In this document: positions 36,855 to 54,488 of the stretch, in pieces | How positions within the stretch are numbered: the first letter of the stretch is position 1 | Layout of the letters: each line of letters opens with the position of its first letter | Assembly: GCF_002572525.1 (NCBI RefSeq) | Contig: NZ_PDBS01000008.1 | Coordinates: 62,001-126,000 of the forward strand | DNA from: Natrinema sp. CBA1119 | GTDB taxonomy: Archaea; Halobacteriota; Halobacteria; Halobacteriales; Natrialbaceae | Direction: 5' to 3' | DNA length: 64,000 nt | Position numbers and translations under genes: made by a program | The notes under the pieces: model-generated | The model's input: only the letters and a program-made list of their open reading frames with translations | The model's database searches: none | What the model was told of the DNA's origin: nothing

Positions 36855-37280
36855 GAACTGTTGCTTTCTTACCACTCTCAGACTTTCATGGTCAGCTAGC
36901 GACTGATTCCGAGATTTGTCATCAAAGGGATGAGGAGAGTAAGCGACAAATCACGACGCCTGAGCGAATGGATCTGTCCTGAAAGCGTACTCCAGTTACT
37001 CCTCGGAGAACAACGATATCCAGTACTGTTTCCCCTGACCTGTGGGACGTATCCAGACCATCAGTGACGCTTTCGCGGCGTTCGACGAATCCCGATTCGC
37101 TGGTGGGAGTGTTCCGACGGTTTCCCTCGAGTAGCGTGATATCGAGGCTCAGCTGGCGTGGATGTGCGTCTACCGAGTTCTGATGGACGGAGCTGTTCGA
37201 ATCGTCGTTTGGAAGGCCTAGCGGTGCCGACTTCGGCCGGGACGATGCCACCGGTGATCCGTCACGACTGGCTGGCTATT
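36855..37280. other. Intergenic, nothing firm
   Basis: Frames here have mixed composition and no recognisable features. It lies just before the partition repeat array. Confidence 0.3.
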
Positions 37281-37287
37281 GGAGATA

Positions 37288-37737
37288 CAATAGGTGGGGT
37301 AGCTACAATAGGCTCAATATGCTTGATAGGTGGTGGTGGTTCAATAGTCGCAATGTGTACAGTAGATATGCGCAATATAATGGATCAACTATGTTTGTTG
37401 GAGACGGTCGGCTATCTGAGGTGCCTCTACTGTGGTTCGTTCGATAGCTGGAATAGCTATAATCGGTGGCGAGCTAACAATAGGCACCTATCCTCCCACA
37501 CCTACTTGTTCTATCACACCTATCTTGCCTATCCTATCTATTATGGCTATTCTACCTATTGAACCTATTGGGCCTATCGTGTCTTTTGTAGGTGGTGGTA
37601 CTATCCTATCTGGCGTGCCTACTCTATCTACTGTCTCTTGAGTTGGCCTCGACAATCGGTGTTGGCTCCTACAATAGGTGCCTGAACTACCTTCCCTATT
37701 GGTCATATTTTACCTATTGTAGCTACTCCTCCTATTG
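37288..37737. repeat. Partition-type iteron array with 9-bp period
   Basis: On the left side CAATAG-like units recur at 37288, 37306, 37315, 37324, 37342, 37351 and 37360, all multiples of 9 bp apart. From 37501 nine consecutive 9-mers follow the pattern YCTATYNNN (CCTATCTTG, CCTATCCTA, TCTATTATG, GCTATTCTA, CCTATTGAA, CCTATTGGG, CCTATCGTG among them). Further CCTATT units lie at 37695, 37713 and 37731. Apparent reading frames here only reflect the repeat (Pro-Ile tripeptides). The position just upstream of parA suggests a centromere (parS-like) and operator. Confidence 0.8.
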
Positions 37738-37855
37738 TACCTCGAGTAGGTAGAATTAATATGATGGGGTGGAATGCATTCTTCACCAGCTGAAATAGGA
37801 GATATCAGAACAATAGGGGCCTATTCTGGCTCGCCTATGGCAGGTACATCCAACA

Positions 37856-38746
37856 ATGTCCGATACAACGACCGAGTCACGTGCCGTAAGCGTGGTTATT
37901 TTGAAAGGTGGCGTCGGCAAATCAACAACTTCGATGAATCTCGCGCGCCAGCTTGTAGAGCGTGGACGAACCCTCTACGCTGATCTCGATCCGAACGGTC
38001 ATGCAACGAACGGCCTCGGTTTCGAAGCGGCATACAACGGTGAGATCAATCTCGGTGACGTCATTCTCGAGGGCAACGCGACACCGCATGACTTGATTCG
38101 ATCGACCGATTACGGCTTCGACCTCCTTCCGTCTTCGAACACACTCGAGGATGTCGAAAAAGACCTTGCGGGCGCGATGCAGGGATCGGCTCGGATCAAA
38201 TCGAAGATCGTCGATCCGTTACTCGGTGACGAGTACGACTTCATCGTTTTCGACTGCCCGGCGTACCCGGGGATGCTCAATAACAACGCCCTCGTTGCGA
38301 CGGGGAACGTCGTGATCCCGATCGAACCGGGCTCGAGTGCGATCGGTGGCTACAAGCGAACGATGGAACGGTTGATCGAACCGGCCCGGGAGTACATCGA
38401 CGTCGACGTCCTCGCTGTCGTTCCGAACAAACTGTCCGATCGGATCGACCAACAGACCGAAGATCGGGAACTACTCGAGAACCTGAATACTGCGACCTAC
38501 GAGGTAAATCCAGGACAATCGTTACAGGAGGCGATCCCGAACTTCGCTCGGATTACGGCCGACGAGTTCGACGCGATCGACGCCGGCGAGATGGCTCCGC
38601 CAAAACCCGGTATCCGTCACCGATCGGCGCTGTCGCGATCACTGCAGCATAATCAACCGTTGCAGGATTACGACCCCGACAACGATCAGATCGACTTTTA
38701 CGAGGAACTTGCCGAAATAGTTGCCGTCGGAGGGGTCGAACGATGA
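37856..38746 (+). CDS. parA: ParA-family partition ATPase
   Basis: This 296-residue ParA/MinD-type ATPase has the deviant Walker A KGGVGKSTTSMNLA (residues about 17-30), the Walker A' ADLDPNGHATNGLG, and the Walker B region YDFIVFDCPAYPGMLNNNAL. It lacks an N-terminal helix-turn-helix, so it resembles the small ParA type; the partner would bind the centromere. It moves replicon copies apart using ATP-dependent nucleoid binding. It is coupled by a 4-nt overlap to the downstream acidic protein and flanked by CAATAG/CTATTG arrays. Confidence 0.9.
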   Translation: MSDTTTESRAVSVVILKGGVGKSTTSMNLARQLVERGRTLYADLDPNGHATNGLGFEAAYNGEINLGDVILEGNATPHDLIRSTDYGFDLLPSSNTLEDVEKDLAGAMQGSARIKSKIVDPLLGDEYDFIVFDCPAYPGMLNNNALVATGNVVIPIEPGSSAIGGYKRTMERLIEPAREYIDVDVLAVVPNKLSDRIDQQTEDRELLENLNTATYEVNPGQSLQEAIPNFARITADEFDAIDAGEMAPPKPGIRHRSALSRSLQHNQPLQDYDPDNDQIDFYEELAEIVAVGGVER

Positions 38747-39204: not shown

Positions 39205-39350
39205 GTTCGATGTGGCCGTATTCCTCATCGATTCGGTGCTGATCTGTGAACGTTTTCTCCGTCCTCGTAGTGATCGCTGGATCTCGAGCGATAATGGTTT
39301 GCAAAATGGGGCTCTCAACCTTTTTCTGTGAAGAATAGGTCCCTTAGGTT

Positions 39351-39417
39351 CAATAGGGTGTTGACGGCCTTGATGAAACGAATACAATAGGATGAATAGG
39401 TGCAATAGCTTAGGTAT
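39351..39417. repeat. Downstream partition iterons
   Basis: CAATAGGGT at 39351, then CAATAGGAT (39385), GAATAGGTG (39394), CAATAGCTT (39403) and TAGGTATCT: units 9 bp apart, the same motif as the upstream array. They lie about 150 bp after the ParA-partner operon, so the operon is bracketed by the repeat. Confidence 0.7.
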
Positions 39418-39849
39418 CTTGGATAGTAGAAAGGGTGTACGTCGTGGAAAGAATGGAGGTGAACCGCCTCGATCTGAAGTTCCGAGGCAGTTGACCGGCC
39501 GACAATAGAGTTCGCTCTGTGAGATCGAATGGGCGAATACACGAAGCAGGCGCGACTAGATGATTGACATATCCTGAACTCACGGAACGGTGTTGATACC
39601 AATCTGTAAATTATATTTCGATATATAATTCTGGGGCAGTGTGGTAGCACAGTTTCGGAGGATAGGTTAGTCGTGGGTCAAATCTCCGTTTATCGGTGAT
39701 TCCCATCGCCAATTAAGAGTCGGTCTCAAGCCCTGTCGACCAGTGTCACCGTATCGAAGCCGACGGCGTGAAGCGCGTAAATCTCCTGTCTGAAACTGCT
39801 TAGTAATTGACGGCGTCACCGTGGCCAGAATCGAACTCCATCCGTTTGA
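39418..39849. other. Intergenic, AT-rich palindrome only
   Basis: AATTATAT-TTCGAT-ATATAATT at about 39608-39630 is a perfect 8-bp stem. No gene is supported. Confidence 0.4.
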
Positions 39850-40792: not shown

Positions 40793-41353
40793 ATGGCTGA
40801 CCCGAAGGAATCCATCAACATCGAAAACGTAGTGGCGTCGACCGGCATCGGGCAGGAACTCGATCTCCAGAGTGTCGCAATGGACCTCGAGGGGGCCGAC
40901 TACGACCCCGAGCAGTTCCCCGGTCTCGTCTACCGCACCCAGAATCCCAAGTCCGCCGCACTGATCTTCCGTTCGGGGAAGATTGTCTGTACCGGCGCGA
41001 AAAGCACTGACGCCGTCCACGAGAGTCTCAATATCGTCTTCGACGAACTCCGCGAACTCCAGATCCAGGTCGAAGCGGACCCCGAGATCATCGTCCAAAA
41101 CATCGTCAGCAGCGCTGATCTCGGCCGGAACCTCAACCTGAACGCGATCGCCATCGGGCTGGGCCTCGAGAATATCGAGTACGAACCGGAGCAATTCCCC
41201 GGACTCGTGTATCGCCTCGATGAGCCGAAAGTCGTCGCCCTCCTCTTCGGCTCCGGGAAACTGGTTATCACCGGCGGGAAGAAGGTGGAAGACGCCAGTC
41301 AGGCCGTCGATGTGATCGTTACCCGCCTCGAGGAGCTCGGCCTGCTCGAGTAA
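40793..41353 (+). CDS. tbp: TATA-box-binding protein (TBP)
   Basis: The 186-residue protein has the two-fold TBP repeat: INIENVVASTGIGQELDLQS with YDPEQFPGLVYRTQNPKSAA, and VQNIVSSADLGRNLNLNAIA with YEPEQFPGLVYRLDEPKVVA; each repeat ends in a FxSGKxVxTGxKxxxDA segment. The C-terminal end is acidic as usual in haloarchaea. It binds TATA boxes and recruits TFB and RNA polymerase. It is an accessory copy; together with the TFB at 25571 it may direct a subset of promoters. Confidence 0.95.
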   Translation: MADPKESINIENVVASTGIGQELDLQSVAMDLEGADYDPEQFPGLVYRTQNPKSAALIFRSGKIVCTGAKSTDAVHESLNIVFDELRELQIQVEADPEIIVQNIVSSADLGRNLNLNAIAIGLGLENIEYEPEQFPGLVYRLDEPKVVALLFGSGKLVITGGKKVEDASQAVDVIVTRLEELGLLE

Positions 41354-46187: not shown

Positions 46188-46215
46188 TGAATAACAATAG
46201 TACTATTGTTATTCA
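46188..46215. promoter_or_regulatory. 28-bp perfect palindrome left of rdfA
   Basis: The half-site TGAATAACAATAGT is followed by its exact reverse complement (centre 46201/46202). It contains CAATAG in inverted pair, the same 6-mer as the partition iterons. It lies 110 nt before the rdfA ATG. The central 22 bp recur at 49027-49048 on the far side of the cassette. Confidence 0.85.
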
Positions 46216-46325
46216 TCCCCTGACTGCTGTACCCATGCCTCCGTTTCGGCAGCGGATGAGGACTGGGATACTGATGACCGCGTCCAATAGAAAGCCTAAT
46301 GATCCTTGAATACTGAGTTATCACT

Positions 46326-46934
46326 ATGGGAACGGGCGAAGATGCGAAACCTCGAACGAAAGTAGGGAAACTCATCGAAAAATATGATTTTGAGGGGATC
46401 GGTGATGAACTCGAGCGGATGTGGACGGCATCCGGAGACGAACGGAAAAGTCTACGGGAACTGGCAGCGATATTTAATAAGCGTCTTCTCCAGTCCAGGA
46501 TCCGGGGTTCGGAGATGAGTCGCCTTCGCACCGACAACGACGATATGTATCTCCAGCTCACGGGTGAGAAGGGGACGTCAGCCGACCAGACGCGGATCCG
46601 ACGACAACTAGAGCGTGAGGGAGTCGACGTTGAGACGCTTCAATCCGACTTCGTCTCCTACGGAGCGATCCGGTCGTTTCTGAAAGAAGAGCGAAGCGCT
46701 GAATACAATCCGAGCCAGAATCCCGTTGAACGGGATACGGATAGCATCCAACAACTTCGCAACCGGACGATGTTGGTTACCGAGACGAAACTGAACGGAC
46801 TGGTGGAGAACGATCACATCGAACTCGGCTCTTACGAAGTTACGGTTGATATCAACGTCTTTTGCGAGGAGTGTGGCCGTCAGTTCGATGTTATAGATAT
46901 TCTCGAGCAAAAGGAATGTGACTGTAAGAAATAG
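46326..46934 (+). CDS. rdfA: RdfA-family protein (rod-determining factor A)
   Basis: The protein has 202 residues. Family pattern: KVGKLIEKYDFEGIGDELER, SLRELAAIFNKRLLQ, a central REGVDVETLQSDFVSYGAIR, and a C-terminal zinc-ribbon-like VDINVFCEECGRQFDVIDIL...CDCK. In Haloferax volcanii RdfA affects rod-cell formation, and homologues are often next to SMC-like genes, as here (gene 2 starts about 100 nt downstream). The C-terminal Cys cluster and helical N-terminus suggest a nucleic-acid or protein adaptor. The exact biochemical role is not established. Confidence 0.8.
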   Translation: MGTGEDAKPRTKVGKLIEKYDFEGIGDELERMWTASGDERKSLRELAAIFNKRLLQSRIRGSEMSRLRTDNDDMYLQLTGEKGTSADQTRIRRQLEREGVDVETLQSDFVSYGAIRSFLKEERSAEYNPSQNPVERDTDSIQQLRNRTMLVTETKLNGLVENDHIELGSYEVTVDINVFCEECGRQFDVIDILEQKECDCKK

Positions 46935-47034
46935 ACAGCTGCCGGTAAGTTGACTCCTGTCGCGTCGCTGATCAGCGGGAGTCTATCGTATCGACCGAAG
47001 GGTTTATTGTATGTTGTAGTATATGATTTCAGTA

Positions 47035-48969
47035 ATGAGTGTTGAACAACAGAAGCGAGACGTTCAACTAGCCGTGGAACAGATCGGCGGAATCGAGAAT
47101 ACGTCAGTGACGTTTTCTCCCGGCGTAACACTCCTCGTCGGGCGAAACGCGACGAACCGTACATCACTTCTTCAGGCCGTAATGGCTGCCCTCGGAAGCA
47201 ACGACGTTTCGGTGAAGGGGGACGCGAACGAAGCGACCGTCGAAATGAATGTTGGGGAGGATACATACCATCGATCACTCAAACGCACAAACGACCACAT
47301 CACGGCCAGCGGCGAACCGTACCTTGAGGACTCGACGCTGGCGGACCTCTTCGCATTCTTACTGGAATCGAACAAAGCCCGTCGTGCCGTTGCGAACAGC
47401 GACGACCTTCGGGAGATCATTATGCGACCAGTCGACACCGACGAGATTCAAGCCGAGATCGAACGGCTCGTCCAGCGACGTCATGAAGTCGACCAGGAAC
47501 TCGATGAGATCGAATCACTCAAACAGCAACTGCCGTCGCTCGAGGAAGAGCGGACGAGTCTCCGAGACCGTATCGAAGACATTCAGGCGGAACTCGCCGA
47601 CAAAGAGGCGGAACTCGATTCTCGCGATGCCGACCTCGAACAGACCCGCGAGGAGAAAGCGGAACTCGAAGAGAAACTTTCGACCCTCCGTGACAACCGT
47701 TCGACGCTGGAGACCATTCGATACGATCTGGAGACGGAACGGGACAGTCTCGACTCGCTCCAGTCTGAAATGCAGGAACTCGAGACGGAGTTGGCCGAGC
47801 TTCCGGAGACCCCGGTCGGCGAGATCGACGAATTAGAGTCGCGTATCGATCGACTCCGAGCGCAGAAGCGACAACTCCAGTCCGAAATCAGCGAATGTCG
47901 GAGCGTCATTCAGTTCAACGAGGATATGATCGGGGAGACGGATACGGAGCTGTCTGCCGCCCTCGGTTCGGACGGGCCGGTCACGGACGAACTCCTCCCC
48001 GAAGAGACGACGACGTGTTGGACGTGCGGGACCGAAGTCGATGTCGAGCAGATCGAAGCGACGGTCGACCGACTCCGAGAGTACTCCCAGCAGAAGAGCC
48101 AGGAGTCAAACGAAATTCAAGACGAGTTAGATACGTTGAAAGAGGAGCGCCGTGAACTCCAGCAACAACAAAGCCGTCGGGAAGACGTCCAGCAGCGTCT
48201 GACCGAACTCGACCGCGAAATCGAAGCGACGGAGGACGAAATCGAACAGTTGACCGACCGGAAGGAAACGATTCGAACCGAGATCAGCGAGGTCGAGAGT
48301 GAAGTCGAAGCGTTGGAGAACGACTCCTACGAGGAGATCCTCGACCTCCACAAGGAAGCGAATCAACTGGAGTACGATCTCGGGAAAGTCGAGGGGAATC
48401 TGGAGGGGGTCGAAGCCGAAATCCAGGAGATCGAAGCGCGGATCGACGAAGAAGACGAACTCACAGAGAAACGGGAAGCGCTCACTGACGACATTTCCGA
48501 ACAGCGAACGAAGATCGATCGCATCGAACAGCAGGCCGTCGATGAATTCAACGAGCACATGGACACCGTGCTAAACCTGCTCGGTTACGATAATCTCGAT
48601 CGAATCTGGATCGAGCGGGTCGAACGGGAAGTCCGCGAGGGGCGTCGGAAAGTGACCAGGAGCGTGTTCGATTTGCACGTGATCCGCCAGACGGAGAACA
48701 ACACGACCTACGAGGATACGATCAATCACCTCAGTGAGAGCGAACGGGAAGTGACCGGATTGATCTTCGCACTCGCCGGCTATCTGGCCCACGAAGTGTA
48801 CGAGACCGTCCCCGTCATGATTCTGGACTCTCTGGAAGCGATCGACTCCGAACGGATCGCGGAACTGGTCGAGTACCTGTCCGACTACAGCGATTACCTC
48901 GTGGTAGCGCTCTTACCGGAAGACGCGGTGAGTCTCGACGACGAGTATCAGCGGATATCGGAAATCTAA
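47035..48969 (+). CDS. Archaeal SMC-related coiled-coil ATPase
   Basis: The protein has 644 residues from MSVEQQKRDVQLAVEQIGGI. Head part 1 has a divergent Walker A (LLVGRNATNRTSLLQAV, with NRTS instead of GKST). Long coiled coils span about 120-300 and 350-510; a CWTCG zinc-hook motif is at the apex (about residue 325). Head part 2 has a signature-like LSESEREVTGLIFALAGYL and Walker B VPVMILDSLEAIDSERIAEL. It resembles Rad50/SMC-type DNA tethers. It is adjacent to rdfA and framed by two palindromes. It probably organises DNA or chromosome/plasmid structure in concert with RdfA. Confidence 0.85.
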   Translation: MSVEQQKRDVQLAVEQIGGIENTSVTFSPGVTLLVGRNATNRTSLLQAVMAALGSNDVSVKGDANEATVEMNVGEDTYHRSLKRTNDHITASGEPYLEDSTLADLFAFLLESNKARRAVANSDDLREIIMRPVDTDEIQAEIERLVQRRHEVDQELDEIESLKQQLPSLEEERTSLRDRIEDIQAELADKEAELDSRDADLEQTREEKAELEEKLSTLRDNRSTLETIRYDLETERDSLDSLQSEMQELETELAELPETPVGEIDELESRIDRLRAQKRQLQSEISECRSVIQFNEDMIGETDTELSAALGSDGPVTDELLPEETTTCWTCGTEVDVEQIEATVDRLREYSQQKSQESNEIQDELDTLKEERRELQQQQSRREDVQQRLTELDREIEATEDEIEQLTDRKETIRTEISEVESEVEALENDSYEEILDLHKEANQLEYDLGKVEGNLEGVEAEIQEIEARIDEEDELTEKREALTDDISEQRTKIDRIEQQAVDEFNEHMDTVLNLLGYDNLDRIWIERVEREVREGRRKVTRSVFDLHVIRQTENNTTYEDTINHLSESEREVTGLIFALAGYLAHEVYETVPVMILDSLEAIDSERIAELVEYLSDYSDYLVVALLPEDAVSLDDEYQRISEI

Positions 48970-49026
48970 CGGCCCCGGACTTCTCTCACGTGGCCGAATA
49001 TTGCGATAGCCGGGACCTGGATTAGA

Positions 49027-49048
49027 ATAACAATAGTACTATTGTTAT
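49027..49048. promoter_or_regulatory. 22-bp palindrome right of the SMC-like gene
   Basis: The half-site ATAACAATAGT is followed by its exact reverse complement (centre 49037/49038), identical to the central 22 bp of the palindrome at 46188. It lies 57 nt after the stop of the SMC-like gene. Confidence 0.85.
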
Positions 49049-49221: not shown

Positions 49222-49986
49222 TCAATCCGAGTACACGATTTCTAACTCCAGTTCGTTTACCGTGGCCAAGAGGAGATCTGGGAGTTTTTCGCGGAGAAAA
49301 TCGCCTTTCATCCGTTTGGCTGGGCCGGAGATCGTCAGTGCACCGAGAACGCTGCTGTTTGGATCTCGTACGGGCGCAGCAACTGCGTTGCTTCCTTCGT
49401 AGTGTTCCTCAATATTGTATGCGACACCGGTTTCTCGAATGGTCTCGAGTTCTTCGAACAGGGATTCCTCAGTAGCGATGCTGTGCTCCGTGGCGGCGTT
49501 GAGCCCGTGTTCCTCAATGATCTCATGTACTCGATCGTCGGAGAGATAGGCGAGAATCGCTTTTCCCGCTGCTGTGACGTGAAGCGGGAAGTCCGTTCCT
49601 TTTCCAGTAAACGTCTCCACAGCGAGATTCCCCGTTCTCGTATACACGTATCGACCGCGACCGTGCTCTTCGATGACGAAGTGAGTGCGACCACCGGTTT
49701 CCTCAGCAAGGGACTCAACCCGCGTTTCGGCTTTTCGATATGCTGGTTTTCGGCGTCGTGTGTATTCTCCAATATGGAGATATTCCATGCTCGGATAGTA
49801 CAGGTCACCCTCTTTGATCACGTACCCCTCGTCTAACAACGTCTGGAGGTGTTTGTGTGAGGTGCTCGGAGCGATATCGAGTTCGTTTGCAATTTCCGTT
49901 ACACGCGCCCCATCCCGTCTTACGAGTTCTTGAACGACGCTGAGGCTAATCCCGACCGCGTTAATCTGTTGCCGGTTGTTTGCCAT
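49222..49986 (-). CDS. IclR-family transcriptional regulator
   Basis: The protein has 254 residues from MANNRQQINAVGISLSVVQE. The N-terminal winged helix is ARVTEIANELDIAPSTSHKH...LLDEGYVIKEG; the C-terminal IclR effector domain contains FPLHVTAAGKAILAYLSDDR and GVAYNIEEHYEGSNAVAAPV (effector pocket). It probably controls the catabolic genes that follow, acting on a pathway acid. An inverted repeat between its TATA box and start suggests autoregulation. Confidence 0.88.
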   Translation of the reverse strand: MANNRQQINAVGISLSVVQELVRRDGARVTEIANELDIAPSTSHKHLQTLLDEGYVIKEGDLYYPSMEYLHIGEYTRRRKPAYRKAETRVESLAEETGGRTHFVIEEHGRGRYVYTRTGNLAVETFTGKGTDFPLHVTAAGKAILAYLSDDRVHEIIEEHGLNAATEHSIATEESLFEELETIRETGVAYNIEEHYEGSNAVAAPVRDPNSSVLGALTISGPAKRMKGDFLREKLPDLLLATVNELELEIVYSD

Positions 49987-50017
49987 AGTGGCCAATGGAA
50001 GGGCCACTATATAAAAT
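49987..50017 (-). promoter_or_regulatory. TATA box plus operator-like inverted repeat of iclR
   Basis: ATATAAAAT (50010-50018 region) is centred about 27 nt before the ATG at 49986. Between them AGTGGCC (49987-49993) and GGCCACT (50002-50008) form a perfect inverted repeat with 8-nt spacer, positioned to block initiation when bound. Confidence 0.6.
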
Positions 50018-50459
50018 TCATGCCTGGGAAAGCATCTAACACTCATTCATGCATGGTGAATCAATTTGTATTTCTTAGTCTGTGAGAACGCTCTGTGACG
50101 ATAGTCGCAATCCCTCCCTTGTTATGCGAACTCATGACGCATGTTATAGTAAGCGGATTTATATAATTTCTTCTCTAGAAATCGTGGATTTTACCGGGAA
50201 ATTTCTGACCGGCGAATCCGCACAATTGGCATAGTACGTCGTTATCTGGGCTTATCATTCACAGATGGGTTCTTCCTACATGAATATTGTATAATAGCTG
50301 TTGAAATTAGCGTATTAATACGGTATACTGCCACACATGCAGTTTCCGAGAGCGAAAACGGTCACACAGCAATTACCGTGTAAAATCACATCAGTTGGTG
50401 TTCGAAACTGTGGTCGCCGCTACCACAACTCTCATAGTCCGTTACCGCAATCGTGCAGT
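50018..50459. promoter_or_regulatory. Divergent control region between iclR and acyl-CoA dehydrogenase
   Basis: About 440 bp, AT-rich for this window, with TATA-like GGATTTATATAAT near 50156 and GTATTAATACGG near 50313. An open frame with an ATG at 50337 runs into the dehydrogenase but adds a Cys- and His-rich stretch not seen in the family. No separate gene. Confidence 0.5.
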
Positions 50460-51587
50460 ATGGACTTTCACCTGACTGATGAGCAGCAGTTAGTGTATGA
50501 GACTGCGTCCGACATTGCGGAACAGGAGTTCGAAGCCGACGCATTCACGTGGGAAGACGAGTTTCCGGCCCCAAACCAGACCGTTCTCGCGGAACAGGAA
50601 CTTCTCGGTATTGGGCTTCCGAGAGAGTACGGTGGTGGCGGTTACTCACCTATCGAAGTGTTGCTCGCTCAGGAAGCCGTCGGCCGAGTCTGCCCGGATA
50701 CCGCACACATTCTGTCGCGGTCGTCAATGGGACCGCCTCGAGTCATCGCCGAACTCGGGAGTGACTACCTGAAGGAAAAATATCTCCCGCGTGTCTGTGC
50801 CGGCGATGCGATTATCTCCGTCGCGATCTCGGAATCCAGGGCTGGATCCGATGCGGGGAACATGCAAACGAGCGTCGAGTATGACGGTGATCAGCTCGTC
50901 CTCAACGGAAGCAAGATGTGGGTAACGAAAGCCCAACAGTGCGCTGCGTTTCTCGTCTACGCTCGCTTCCCCGACGATAACATCGGTGCCATCGTCGTCG
51001 ACAAGGATACTGATGGCCTCTCGCTCGACGATGGGACGACGAACATGGCGGGACACGTCCAGAACGAACTGTATTTCGACGACTGCCGCGTTCCGGAAGA
51101 GCAGGTTCTGGTCCACGAGAAAGAGGCGTTCAAGGAACTGATGATCGAGTTCAACGTGGAACGTTGTCACAACGCGATGATGTGCGTCGCGTGTGGGTTG
51201 AACGCCTTCGACAAGGCTCTCACGTACGCAAAGGAGCGAGAACAGTTCGGACAGCCGATCGGCGATTTCCAGGGTATCGAGTGGAAACTTGCGGACATGG
51301 CGATCGACCTCGAGGCAGCGCGCCTTCTCATATACAGGGCGGCGGCCAACGCACAGGACAGCGATCCGTCGCGTCTCGAGACGTCGATTGCGAAGGTCAA
51401 AGCCAACGAGGTCGGTCAGCACGTCGTCGATGAGGCGCTCCAGATTCACGGGGCGATCGGCTATATGCAGGATTCGCCGCTCGAGTACATGTACCGGTGG
51501 GTCCGCGGATGGAAGATCGCCGGCGGGACGGTCGAGGTCCAGCGGAACGGAATTGCCAGCTACCTCAAGAAATACGGTCTCGAGTAA
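50460..51587 (+). CDS. Acyl-CoA dehydrogenase
   Basis: The protein has 375 residues from MDFHLTDEQQLVYETASDIA. FAD-dependent alpha,beta-dehydrogenation is indicated by ISVAISESRAGSDAGNMQTS (FAD-binding motif), WVTKAQQCAAFLVYAR, REQFGQPIGDFQGIEWKLAD and the C-terminal HGAIGYMQDSPLEYMYRWVR. In the C-terminal YEGT-type motif the usual Glu is absent (IAGGTVEVQRNGIA), so the catalytic base may lie in the G-helix as in isovaleryl- and long-chain enzymes. It is the first enzyme of the island; the substrate may be a branched or dicarboxylic acyl-CoA. Confidence 0.9.
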   Translation: MDFHLTDEQQLVYETASDIAEQEFEADAFTWEDEFPAPNQTVLAEQELLGIGLPREYGGGGYSPIEVLLAQEAVGRVCPDTAHILSRSSMGPPRVIAELGSDYLKEKYLPRVCAGDAIISVAISESRAGSDAGNMQTSVEYDGDQLVLNGSKMWVTKAQQCAAFLVYARFPDDNIGAIVVDKDTDGLSLDDGTTNMAGHVQNELYFDDCRVPEEQVLVHEKEAFKELMIEFNVERCHNAMMCVACGLNAFDKALTYAKEREQFGQPIGDFQGIEWKLADMAIDLEAARLLIYRAAANAQDSDPSRLETSIAKVKANEVGQHVVDEALQIHGAIGYMQDSPLEYMYRWVRGWKIAGGTVEVQRNGIASYLKKYGLE

Positions 51588-51740
51588 CTGCTGTACGCTC
51601 CGGGATAACTCGGTGGGAGACGGCCTCCGGACGAGGTCCTAAATTCTCGAGCGGAAACGGTCGTCGCTATCGTGGGTGGGCTGTGGTTCCGTATTCGATG
51701 CGATAGGTGGATAGCTGGATGACAGCGCAGCGACGAGCCG

Positions 51741-53108
51741 TTACAGGGATTCCGTGAACGTCGCGACCGAATCGTACTCGGTAATCGAGAACGCGTTCTC
51801 GATGATCGTCTCTCGTTGCGCTTCGGAGAGGGCTGCGCCGGTGATGTCGTGGAACTTCTCTTCGATCTGCTCCCGCGAGAGCGGTTTCTCGGGGGCACCT
51901 AACGGATATTTCACGACCTCCTCGTACTGTTCGCCGGAGTGCAGCGTCACGACCACGCGTGCTGGTCGCGTCTCCGGATAGATCGCCTCCATCTCGTCGG
52001 TTTTGACTACGTCGACGTTGTCGATGAGCGCGTTAATCTCCGGATTGTCCGCGTTCGACGGGTCGAACTGAGCGAGTTTCGCCGATCCCGTGACGAGTGC
52101 GACCGCGACTCCGTACGGGATACTCATCTGCGTATCGAGCAGATTCTCGACCGTCTTCTTGTCGTGATGCGACGCGGTCCCGTACGTTTCGACCCGGATC
52201 GACTCGACGTCGGCCGCCGTCACTCCCTCGTCACGAATCGTCTGTACGGCCTCGATCGGACCGTGAATATGGCGACAGCATGGGAACGCCTTCAGGTAGT
52301 TTTCGGTCACCGAGAACGGGTCGCCCAGGTTCTCGAACGGCTCGAGATCGTACTCGTCGGTGAACGCTCTCGCGAATCCGTCTTTTCCCTCGATGATCGT
52401 GTCCGGTCCGTCGAACCCGGTTGCGGCGAGTTCGCCGGCGAGAATGCCGGCCATTGCGGCTCGTCCCGGGTGGAACCGCTTGGCCATCGATCCCTTTTCG
52501 AGGAACTCGAAGAGCCCTCCCGCCTGCGTCCCCGCCAGACCGATGGCGTGAGCCGTCTCCGTCTCGTCGAGATCGAGAATGCAACTCACCGCCGCAGCGG
52601 CCCCGAAACAGCCACACGTTGCCGTCGCATGAAAGCCCCGTTCGCGGTGAGAGGTCTGGACGGACTTTGCGGTCTGTACCATCCCTTCGTATCCAGCGAC
52701 GATGGCAGTGATGAGTTCCGTTCCGGACGCGTTCGTTTTCTCAGCGGTGGCGAGTGCTGCCGGAATGACGGCACTCCCAGGGTGCCCGGCAGCACTTCTG
52801 TGTCCATCATCGACGTCTAACGCGTGAGCGAGCGTTCCGTTGGCGAGCGCTGCGAACTGTGCGGGCGGAGCGCTCTCGTTACCGATGACCGTCGCTTCGC
52901 CGCTATCGTACTGGTCGACGTAACTGAGAATGCGCTCTCCCGGCTCGGTATCGATCCCTGCATATGCCGCCGCGAGCGTGTCGACGAGCGCCTTTTTCGC
53001 CGCCTCGATCACCTCGTCGTCTAACGACTCGTACTCCAGGCCGGTACAGAACTTCGCTAACCGAACCGTTTCGCCGTCTTCGTGGCGTTGCTGGGTATTC
53101 TGTCCCAT
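51741..53108 (-). CDS. MmgE/PrpD-family protein
   Basis: The protein has 455 residues. MmgE/PrpD enzymes dehydrate or decarboxylate hydroxy-tricarboxylates (2-methylcitrate dehydratase, cis-aconitate decarboxylase). Family features: ALVDTLAAAYAGIDTEPGER, HALDVDDGHRSAAGHPGSAV, SMAKRFHPGRAAMAGILAGE and KAFPCCRHIHGPIEAVQTIR. A TATA box (AAGTTATAAAGG, minus strand) is centred about 27 nt upstream of the ATG. It is transcribed against its neighbours but functionally grouped with the tricarboxylate transporter. Confidence 0.88.
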   Translation of the reverse strand: MGQNTQQRHEDGETVRLAKFCTGLEYESLDDEVIEAAKKALVDTLAAAYAGIDTEPGERILSYVDQYDSGEATVIGNESAPPAQFAALANGTLAHALDVDDGHRSAAGHPGSAVIPAALATAEKTNASGTELITAIVAGYEGMVQTAKSVQTSHRERGFHATATCGCFGAAAAVSCILDLDETETAHAIGLAGTQAGGLFEFLEKGSMAKRFHPGRAAMAGILAGELAATGFDGPDTIIEGKDGFARAFTDEYDLEPFENLGDPFSVTENYLKAFPCCRHIHGPIEAVQTIRDEGVTAADVESIRVETYGTASHHDKKTVENLLDTQMSIPYGVAVALVTGSAKLAQFDPSNADNPEINALIDNVDVVKTDEMEAIYPETRPARVVVTLHSGEQYEEVVKYPLGAPEKPLSREQIEEKFHDITGAALSEAQRETIIENAFSITEYDSVATFTESL

Positions 53109-53130
53109 GGGTACTACATCTACTGCTCGC

Positions 53131-53140
53131 CTTTATAACT
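53131..53140 (-). promoter_or_regulatory. TATA box of the MmgE/PrpD gene
   Basis: AGTTATAAAG on the minus strand, centre about 27 nt from the start at 53108. Confidence 0.55.
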
Positions 53141-53264
53141 TTACCCAGGGATCGGTGGTGTACCAGTCCCGCACACGACTGCGGTATCCGCGGCGTGTCC
53201 GTTCGGACTATCTTACTCTCTGAATGGACGATTCGGTGAAATGCGACGGGGAGACAGAGGGAAA

Positions 53265-53274
53265 GTACATATAT
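53265..53274 (+). promoter_or_regulatory. TATA box of the CoA-transferase gene
   Basis: GTACATATAT is centred about 27 nt upstream of the ATG at 53298, supporting that start. Confidence 0.5.
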
Positions 53275-53297
53275 CTTCGTCAGATACAGAGTGGTGT

Positions 53298-54488
53298 ATG
53301 TCACAACCACTGGACGGTGTTCGAGTCCTCGATCTCGGGCAGATCTATCAAGGTGGCTACAGCGGACTCCTCCTGTCGTTTTTAGGGGCCGATGTAGTCA
53401 AAGTCGAGCCGCCGTGGGGGGAGAACGTCCGGACGCGAAGCGAGGACGGGAAACCCCCACAGTACCAGTTCATGAACGCGACGAAACGGGGGATCACGCT
53501 CAATCTCAAGTCCCAGGAGGGAAAAGAGACGCTCAAGGACCTCGCCGCCGAAGCGGACGTCCTTCTCGAGAACTTTGCAACCGGGAAGATGGACGACCTC
53601 GGCGTTGGATACGACGTGCTCCGCGAGGTGAACCCCGCTCTCGTCTACGCACACGGATCCGGTTACGGCGACGACGGGCCATATGCCGAGTACCCGGCGA
53701 TGGATCTGACGGTTCAGGCGATGAGCGGCGCGATGCATACCACCGGCTACTCGGATCAGCCGCCGGTGAAGGCCGGTCCGGCGATCTCCGATTTCATGGG
53801 TGCGCTTCATCTCGTCGTCGGGATCGTCAGTGCGCTCTTCGAGCGCGAGTCGACCGGAGAGGGACAGTACGTCGAAGTCGGGATGTTCGATACCATGTAC
53901 CCGACGCTGGCGTCGCCGGTATCCTCGATAGTCGATCAGAACGACGCACCCCCGCGTACGGGTAACAAACACTCCGGCCTGGCCATTGCTCCGTACAACA
54001 CGTACGAAGTCGAAGACGGGCACGTTGCTATCATCTGTATCTCCGAGCGCCACTGGGACGAGCTGACCGAAGTCATGGGGCGGCCGGAACTGTCGGACGT
54101 AGAGAAGTACTCGTCGAAGGCCCGTCGAGCAACGCACATCGAGGAAGTCGATGGCTACGTCGAAGAGTGGCTGGACGGGAAAACCAAGGACGAAGTGATG
54201 GAAATTCTCCTGGAGGCCAACGTGCCGAGCGCTCCGGTCAAAACGGTCGAAGAGATCATCGAAGATCCACACCTCGAGCACCGAAACATGATCAAACGCC
54301 TCCCGAACCAGACGGACGGGACGGACGAAATACCGGTGCCCGGCATGCCGATCAAGTTCTCGGACGCTGACGAACCGGATATTGAACGCGCTCCGTTTCT
54401 CGGCGAACACACCGACGAGATCCTCGCCGAGATCGCGCGCTACTCGGACGAAGAGATCGAGCAACTGAGAGAGAAGGACGTCATTTGA
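53298..54488 (+). CDS. CaiB/BaiF (class III) CoA-transferase
   Basis: The protein has 396 residues from MSQPLDGVRVLDLGQIYQGG. Class III CoA-transferase marks are LLSFLGADVVKVEPPWGENV, ATKRGITLNLKSQEGKETLK, YDVLREVNPALVYAHGSGYG, and MDLTVQAMSG with the catalytic Asp (YPAMDL). It transfers CoA from a donor thioester to a carboxylic acid, so it probably activates the imported substrate. A TATA box supports the start. The enoyl-CoA hydratase gene follows 73 nt downstream. Confidence 0.9.
   Translation: MSQPLDGVRVLDLGQIYQGGYSGLLLSFLGADVVKVEPPWGENVRTRSEDGKPPQYQFMNATKRGITLNLKSQEGKETLKDLAAEADVLLENFATGKMDDLGVGYDVLREVNPALVYAHGSGYGDDGPYAEYPAMDLTVQAMSGAMHTTGYSDQPPVKAGPAISDFMGALHLVVGIVSALFERESTGEGQYVEVGMFDTMYPTLASPVSSIVDQNDAPPRTGNKHSGLAIAPYNTYEVEDGHVAIICISERHWDELTEVMGRPELSDVEKYSSKARRATHIEEVDGYVEEWLDGKTKDEVMEILLEANVPSAPVKTVEEIIEDPHLEHRNMIKRLPNQTDGTDEIPVPGMPIKFSDADEPDIERAPFLGEHTDEILAEIARYSDEEIEQLREKDVI

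Follow-up and report, generated by a model that had tools for sequence, protein, structure and literature searches.

The locus and the question it raises

What do RdfA and the SMC-like ATPase encoded beside it act on in haloarchaeal cells? RdfA and Sph3 of Haloferax volcanii (HVO_2174/HVO_2175), whose genes are usually adjacent, are needed for rod formation and motility (PMC10869688), and Sph proteins affect gene conversion and cell shape (PMC11276520). The target of RdfA and of these Sph/ASRP proteins is the gap addressed here, on the basis of a Natrinema locus at which a pair of the same two families, likewise encoded by adjacent genes, lies between two copies of one palindrome. The window, meaning the whole 64-kb stretch of DNA that was analysed, belongs to a 529-kb replicon of a haloarchaeal genome of 5.06 Mb, and contains the following features:

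46188..46215, no strand: left dyad, a perfect 28-bp palindrome of the TAACA class with the core TAACA-N4-TA-N4-TGTTA, upstream of rdfA
46326..46934, + strand: rdfA, rod-determining factor A family, 202 aa (PF21811, E 5.5e-65), the predicted reader of the dyad
46629..46691, + strand: predicted helix-turn-helix of RdfA, helices 102-108 and 112-122 (AlphaFold2 model and class-separating columns)
47023..48969, + strand: ASRP, an Sph-type SMC-like ATPase of 648 aa (NF045487, 676 bits against a cut-off of 300)
49027..49048, no strand: right dyad, a 22-bp palindrome situated where the 3' ends of ASRP and the IclR-family gene face each other
49222..50046, - strand: IclR-family transcription regulator (PF01614, E 8.1e-34)
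50337-51587, + strand: acyl-CoA dehydrogenase (Pfam)
51741-53108, - strand: MmgE/PrpD (Pfam)
53241-54488, + strand: CoA-transferase III (Pfam)

The 22-bp palindrome ATAACAATAGTACTATTGTTAT occurs at 46191-46212 and at 49027-49048 of the window sequence. Its left copy extends to a perfect 28-bp palindrome (TGAATAACAATAGTACTATTGTTATTCA), and 24 nt are identical between the two. Both copies are thus present where the sequence-only reading had placed them, and their position outside the rdfA and SMC-like pair is confirmed, with the genes assigned to RdfA (PF21811) and ASRP (NF045487). The left palindrome lies 110 bp before the rdfA start, ASRP begins 88 bp downstream of rdfA, and the right palindrome follows the ASRP stop by 57 bp. 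The RdfA assignment is firm (219 bits against a cut-off of 27, with the full profile covered, 1-195 of 195), and four zinc-ribbon-like cysteines (C180, C183, C198 and C200) are invariant in the alignment. Beside the right palindrome, and pointing toward it, lies an IclR-family gene that the sequence-only reading had not mentioned; the catabolic genes at 50337..54488 are putative targets of this adjacent regulator.

No further copy at up to 3 mismatches was found in the 64-kb window, where shuffling expects 0. The rest of the Natrinema genome holds one additional copy at 3 mismatches, located 33 bp 3' of a second, stand-alone rdfA, which an IclR gene also adjoins. The same genome also has a sixth rdfA, a degenerate fragment interrupted by an internal TAG (L014, G000:C1:3635546-3635821). 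The window additionally carries a TATA-binding-protein gene (40793-41353) whose N-terminal sequence is the same as that of L012:347-907, near a chromosomal rdfA-ASRP pair, so that a duplicated TBP adjoins two rdfA loci.

The nearest relative of the window cassette is found on plasmid pHTUR01 of Haloterrigena turkmenica (L112, NC_013744.1 681893-695833), with an ASRP 84% identical and a comparable catabolic setting. This cassette is placed between two catabolic clusters, each with an IclR gene; its rdfA-side dyad alone is intact, and a 4-mismatch remnant lies beyond ASRP.

A conserved dyad at rdfA loci

Among 391 Halobacteria genomes, copies at up to 2 mismatches vary mainly at six inner positions, which reduces the palindrome to ATAACA-NNN-GTAC-NNN-TGTTAT, and among 14 rdfA loci retrieved through similarity of the protein, 13 had the element at up to 3 mismatches. 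A motif-independent test covered 80 rdfA loci in 47 genomes out of a 59-genome sample; since selection ran down a ranking by RdfA score, the most divergent RdfAs are poorly represented. When all 5-mer half-sites separated by a 10-bp spacer with a TA centre were counted, TTACA (25) and TAACA (21) stood out, the next best 5-mer reaching 2. The general element is an intergenic dyad of 20-22 bp, TWACA-N4-TA-N4-TGTWA, of which the window palindromes are one instance. It occurs outside genes and within 450 bp of the cassette at 50 of the 80 loci, about 30 being without it, and a control with reversed half-sites gave 0/80. The sequence-only reading had asked whether palindromes would be absent at orthologous loci, and the dyad class proves to be present at most of these unselected ones.

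The strict form RTAACANNNGTACNNNTGTTAY detects only the TAACA class with a GTAC core, and genome counts based on it consequently understate the element. Even so defined, TAACA copies near rdfA exceed the genome-wide density roughly 50-fold (16 observed, 0.31 expected, P 2e-22). Usually the dyad is found on a single side of the cassette, either 5' or 3'. Bracketing of the gene pair, which the same reading had emphasized, thus holds in the window but fails as a general rule, since dyads on both sides were seen at only 4 of the 80 loci (L150, L151, L186 and L199) and at the motif-selected L100 and L108. In three genomes (G036, G037 and G049) the centre of the TAACA dyad is often (C/A/T)TAA and not GTAC (L137 and L152; IclR loci L271-L278). 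This alternative centre, shared by the rdfA and IclR loci of one genus, is possibly a second layer of specificity.

Palindromes at a cassette boundary could also be the ends of a mobile element (a MITE or the cassette itself) or transcription-terminator hairpins, and their perfect symmetry in the window and frequent position 3' of genes would suit such an origin. However, single sites are the norm, and the half-site class co-varies with the RdfA lineage, as described below. The hairpin or terminator form was rejected because the inner N positions are non-complementary in most copies, which leaves no stable stem. The explanation as a whole is regarded as very improbable.

The motif shared with the partition arrays

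Each palindrome contains the 6-mer CAATAG, which is common to the 9-bp-spaced arrays around parA, and from this the sequence-only reading had derived a link to the partition iterons and a possible role as secondary centromere sites of the ParA system of the replicon. The 6-mer is literally shared, but within the dyad it covers variable positions, and 0/59 related dyads at other rdfA loci contain it, so the similarity carries no weight. Moreover, this element also stands beside IclR and rdfA genes on chromosomes, without any involvement of parA, and beside IclR-family and catabolic genes. The centromere explanation accordingly retains almost no probability, and the iteron reading was set aside as coincidence, the dyads having no parA-array unit as a conserved part.

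The arrays themselves (CAATAG/CCTAT with approximately 9-bp phasing) occupy 37240-37860 and 39300-39560 of the window, on both sides of parA (37856-38746), whose 153-aa partner ORF has no Pfam match. Together, parA, the arrays and this ORF likely form an archaeal partition system, the ORF being its putative adaptor.

Dyads beside IclR-family and catabolic genes

Many strict copies adjoin IclR-family genes without rdfA; in one genome (G368), about 9 of 10 copies are close to an IclR gene. The strict form was found at up to 2 mismatches at 23 of 40 IclR loci from four genomes. At 30 IclR loci taken one per genome and unselected for the motif, the exact general dyad occurs at 16 (control 0) and, with up to 1 mismatch, at 21 (control 2 hits). 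Copies with neither rdfA nor IclR nearby adjoin catabolic genes (mandelate racemase/enolase type, lactate permease, FAA hydrolase, LUD and MalK-type ABC), and on pHTUR01 one such copy is located at methylmalonyl-CoA mutase. On pHH400 of Haloarcula hispanica, a dyad at 157322-157343 follows by 12 bp the IclR gene of a sugar-alcohol cluster. Judged from its product and neighbours, this gene is taken to be mscR, whose product activates the use of sorbitol and mannitol (PMC11519228).

These positions make it conceivable that the dyad is an ordinary IclR-family operator, that the rdfA/ASRP cassette is one of its regulated targets, and that the window palindromes belong to the IclR protein of 49222-50046. 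IclR proteins are dimeric winged helix-turn-helix regulators with palindromic sites, and the operators of bacterial group 2 (TGRAACA-N1-2-TGTTYCA) resemble the dyad in their AACA and TGTT half-sites and in their placement by IclR genes (PMC8222616). The dyad half-sites are nevertheless 10 bp apart, a spacing about 8 bp longer than in group 2. Dyads lie 3' and 5' of IclR genes in a ratio of 41:19 and show no promoter preference, their distribution being like that of intergenic sequence, and more than half of the first-pass rdfA loci with TAACA-type sites have no IclR gene within 4.5 kb. The distribution of half-site classes, considered below, also speaks against such an operator.

RdfA and IclR are co-inherited. 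RdfA is encoded in 50 of 59 genomes and IclR in the identical set of 50 (these being the only two families compared), while both are missing from the same nine genomes, which belong to six genera (Fisher P 8e-11, or 9e-7 with one genome per genus and state). Of the genomes sampled from genus g30, four possess the two families and four lack both. The sole IclR gene of G043 and of G018 adjoins the sole rdfA, and the single IclR call of G008, which stands at the cut-off (24.1 bits against 24), is also near an rdfA. Overall, 23 of the 80 rdfA genes have an IclR gene no more than 4.5 kb away, where 1.4 are expected (P 1e-21).

Two further observations concern this neighbourhood. L099 (G303:C2:3413000-3430000), a close relative of the L011 locus, retains the IclR gene (89% identical) and the dyad, but no rdfA was detected in the interval, which may reflect natural loss of that gene. 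At L176, L177 and L184, rdfA-ASRP cassettes with TTACA dyads have nearby genes for strongly diverged IclR-like proteins that score at the family cut-off.

Half-site class follows the RdfA and ASRP lineages

The dyads fall into two classes, TAACA (TA) and TTACA (TT), and an operator should vary with the lineage of the protein that reads it. On the ASRP tree the class changes once across 40 labelled loci (shuffled mean 13.6, minimum 10), and on the RdfA tree three times across 53 (shuffled mean 18.2, minimum 11). On the IclR tree, 18 changes were counted across 59 labelled loci against a shuffled mean of 18.8, which is no better than chance. Paralogues within one genome match their own RdfA clade, as in G028 (L146 TT, L187 TA), G032 (L145 TT, L185 TA) and G013 (L182 TT, L125 TA), and three labelled loci deviate in the TA/TT comparison (L124, L169 and L013).

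The class of a genome's RdfA also predicted the dyads at its IclR genes in newly collected loci. In the TA-only genomes G037 and G049, where the sole RdfA belongs to the TA clade, these dyads were TAACA in 7/7 cases, and in the TT-only genome G026, with an RdfA of the TT type alone, they were TTACA in 9/9. Over single-class genomes the split is 7:0 against 0:21 (Fisher P 8e-7, for sites that are non-independent within a genome and with the two TA-only genomes drawn from one genus). In the window genome, strict-form TAACA copies stand at two rdfA loci whose proteins carry Y112 and R116, and the dyads at other sampled IclR genes are TTACA. The trees and the genome test together indicate that many unrelated IclR paralogues of one genome share a single class, which is set by RdfA/ASRP. 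Because of these results, the IclR operator, previously the leading view, was demoted and is now considered unlikely.

Since the class agrees equally well with ASRP and with RdfA, either protein could be the reader, and agreement at the level of the genome needs only a reader that travels with the cassette. Reading by ASRP itself, which is favoured by the perfect separation of classes on its tree, or by a third protein co-inherited with RdfA and ASRP, is nonetheless judged improbable. The class-separating columns of ASRP are scattered, whereas the top two of RdfA lie on one predicted recognition helix, and dyads also accompany stand-alone rdfA genes without ASRP (L011, L164 and L191).

A predicted recognition helix in RdfA

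The AlphaFold2 model of RdfA (mean pLDDT 91.7) contains helices at 85-97, 102-108 and 112-122, a layout predicted to be a helix-turn-helix in which 112-122 would serve as the recognition helix. The two columns of about 200 in RdfA that best separate the classes, 112 and 116, are one helical turn apart on this helix. At TAACA loci, Y112 occurs in 26/27 proteins and R116 in 27/27; at TTACA loci, H112 occurs in 26/26, with H or Y at position 116 in 24/26. A wider look at loci first scored as dyad-less revealed dyads at L135 and L153 (H/H, TT) and at L156 and L180 (Y/R, TA), all in line with this pattern.

The site thus co-varies with its proposed reader along one main phylogenetic split. Because the classes amount to nearly a single split, support for residues 112 and 116 comes from their location on the helix and not from repeated independent switches; outside the TA clade, L194, L196 and L012 have Y/R, and a dyad was found at none of them. 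A comparison of the RdfA model with PDB folds gave no match below E 1.3, TetR-type helical regulators being among the insignificant hits, and a profile search of PDB sequences returned no solved relative. RdfA is for these reasons not assigned to ParB or MatP.

RdfA as the proposed reader and its relation to known systems

The palindromes are proposed to be recognition sites of RdfA, which would act with ASRP both at the cassette encoding the pair and at IclR loci. This reading, drawn from comparison of sequences, is given a probability of roughly two in three. RdfA would bind the dyad as a dimer, with one helix-turn-helix per half-site, and residues 112 and 116 would choose TAACA (Tyr, Arg) or TTACA (His, His/Tyr). 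At its own cassette, RdfA may work with the SMC-like ATPase ASRP in feedback or as a boundary. The two proteins may also act at IclR genes and the catabolic targets of these, where they would probably bridge the DNA or constrain it, in which case IclR-type regulation in haloarchaea would depend on RdfA/ASRP and the rod-shape phenotype of Haloferax would be one output of that regulation. That dyads occur on either the 5' or the 3' side and show no promoter preference fits a structural role such as bridging or a boundary better than a plain operator, although such a fit is not proof.

Not all parts of this proposal are held equally. The action of ASRP at the dyads, and a requirement for dyads in IclR-dependent regulation, are put forward with less confidence than RdfA as a dimeric reader. 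Among the roles named by the sequence-only reading, a site for RdfA or the SMC-like protein is the best-supported option; SMC loading or looping is at most inferred. A broader idea, with the odds against it, is that RdfA-ASRP is a site-directed SMC-type machine needed for the haloarchaeal use of IclR regulators of bacterial origin. RdfA would dock beside IclR genes and their targets and ASRP would bridge or loop the DNA, and IclR control, carbon use and cell shape would then depend on local chromosome architecture.

Sequence-specific proteins that direct an SMC-type ATPase through short palindromes are represented by ParB-parS with SMC and MatP-matS with MukBEF, whose sites occur near the gene of the reader and elsewhere. 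If the proposal is right, RdfA and ASRP would by analogy work alike. RdfA is, however, unrelated to ParB and MatP in sequence, and its sites mark IclR-type loci and not the origin or terminus.

Within the archaea, ClsN is a marker of weakly transcribed chromosome regions in Sulfolobus, and the survey that treats ClsN and Sph proteins as ASRPs, the group to which the window ATPase also belongs, gave neither a flanking-gene consensus nor a recognition site (PMC9389158); the present proposal includes a recognition site as well as a reader partnered with the ATPase. The study of RdfA and Sph3 in Hfx. volcanii describes neither a DNA site nor binding to DNA nor a connection with IclR, a word that it does not contain (PMC10869688). 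More generally, no link of RdfA with IclR or with DNA binding was found in openly readable papers. The patterns described above suggest a connection between two previously unconnected processes. CsmR of Hfx. volcanii, whose regulon includes rdfA and sph3, likewise recognizes a palindromic site, TATCA-N4-TGATA (PMC13286277), but its half-site and spacing differ and it is unrelated to the TWACA dyad.

Should the reading hold, RdfA would be a DNA-binding protein, an archaeal SMC relative would gain a recognition site, and carbon regulation would be linked with chromosome organization and cell shape. The dyad, the predicted two-residue helix code and the complete co-inheritance with IclR make the proposal directly testable in laboratory strains.
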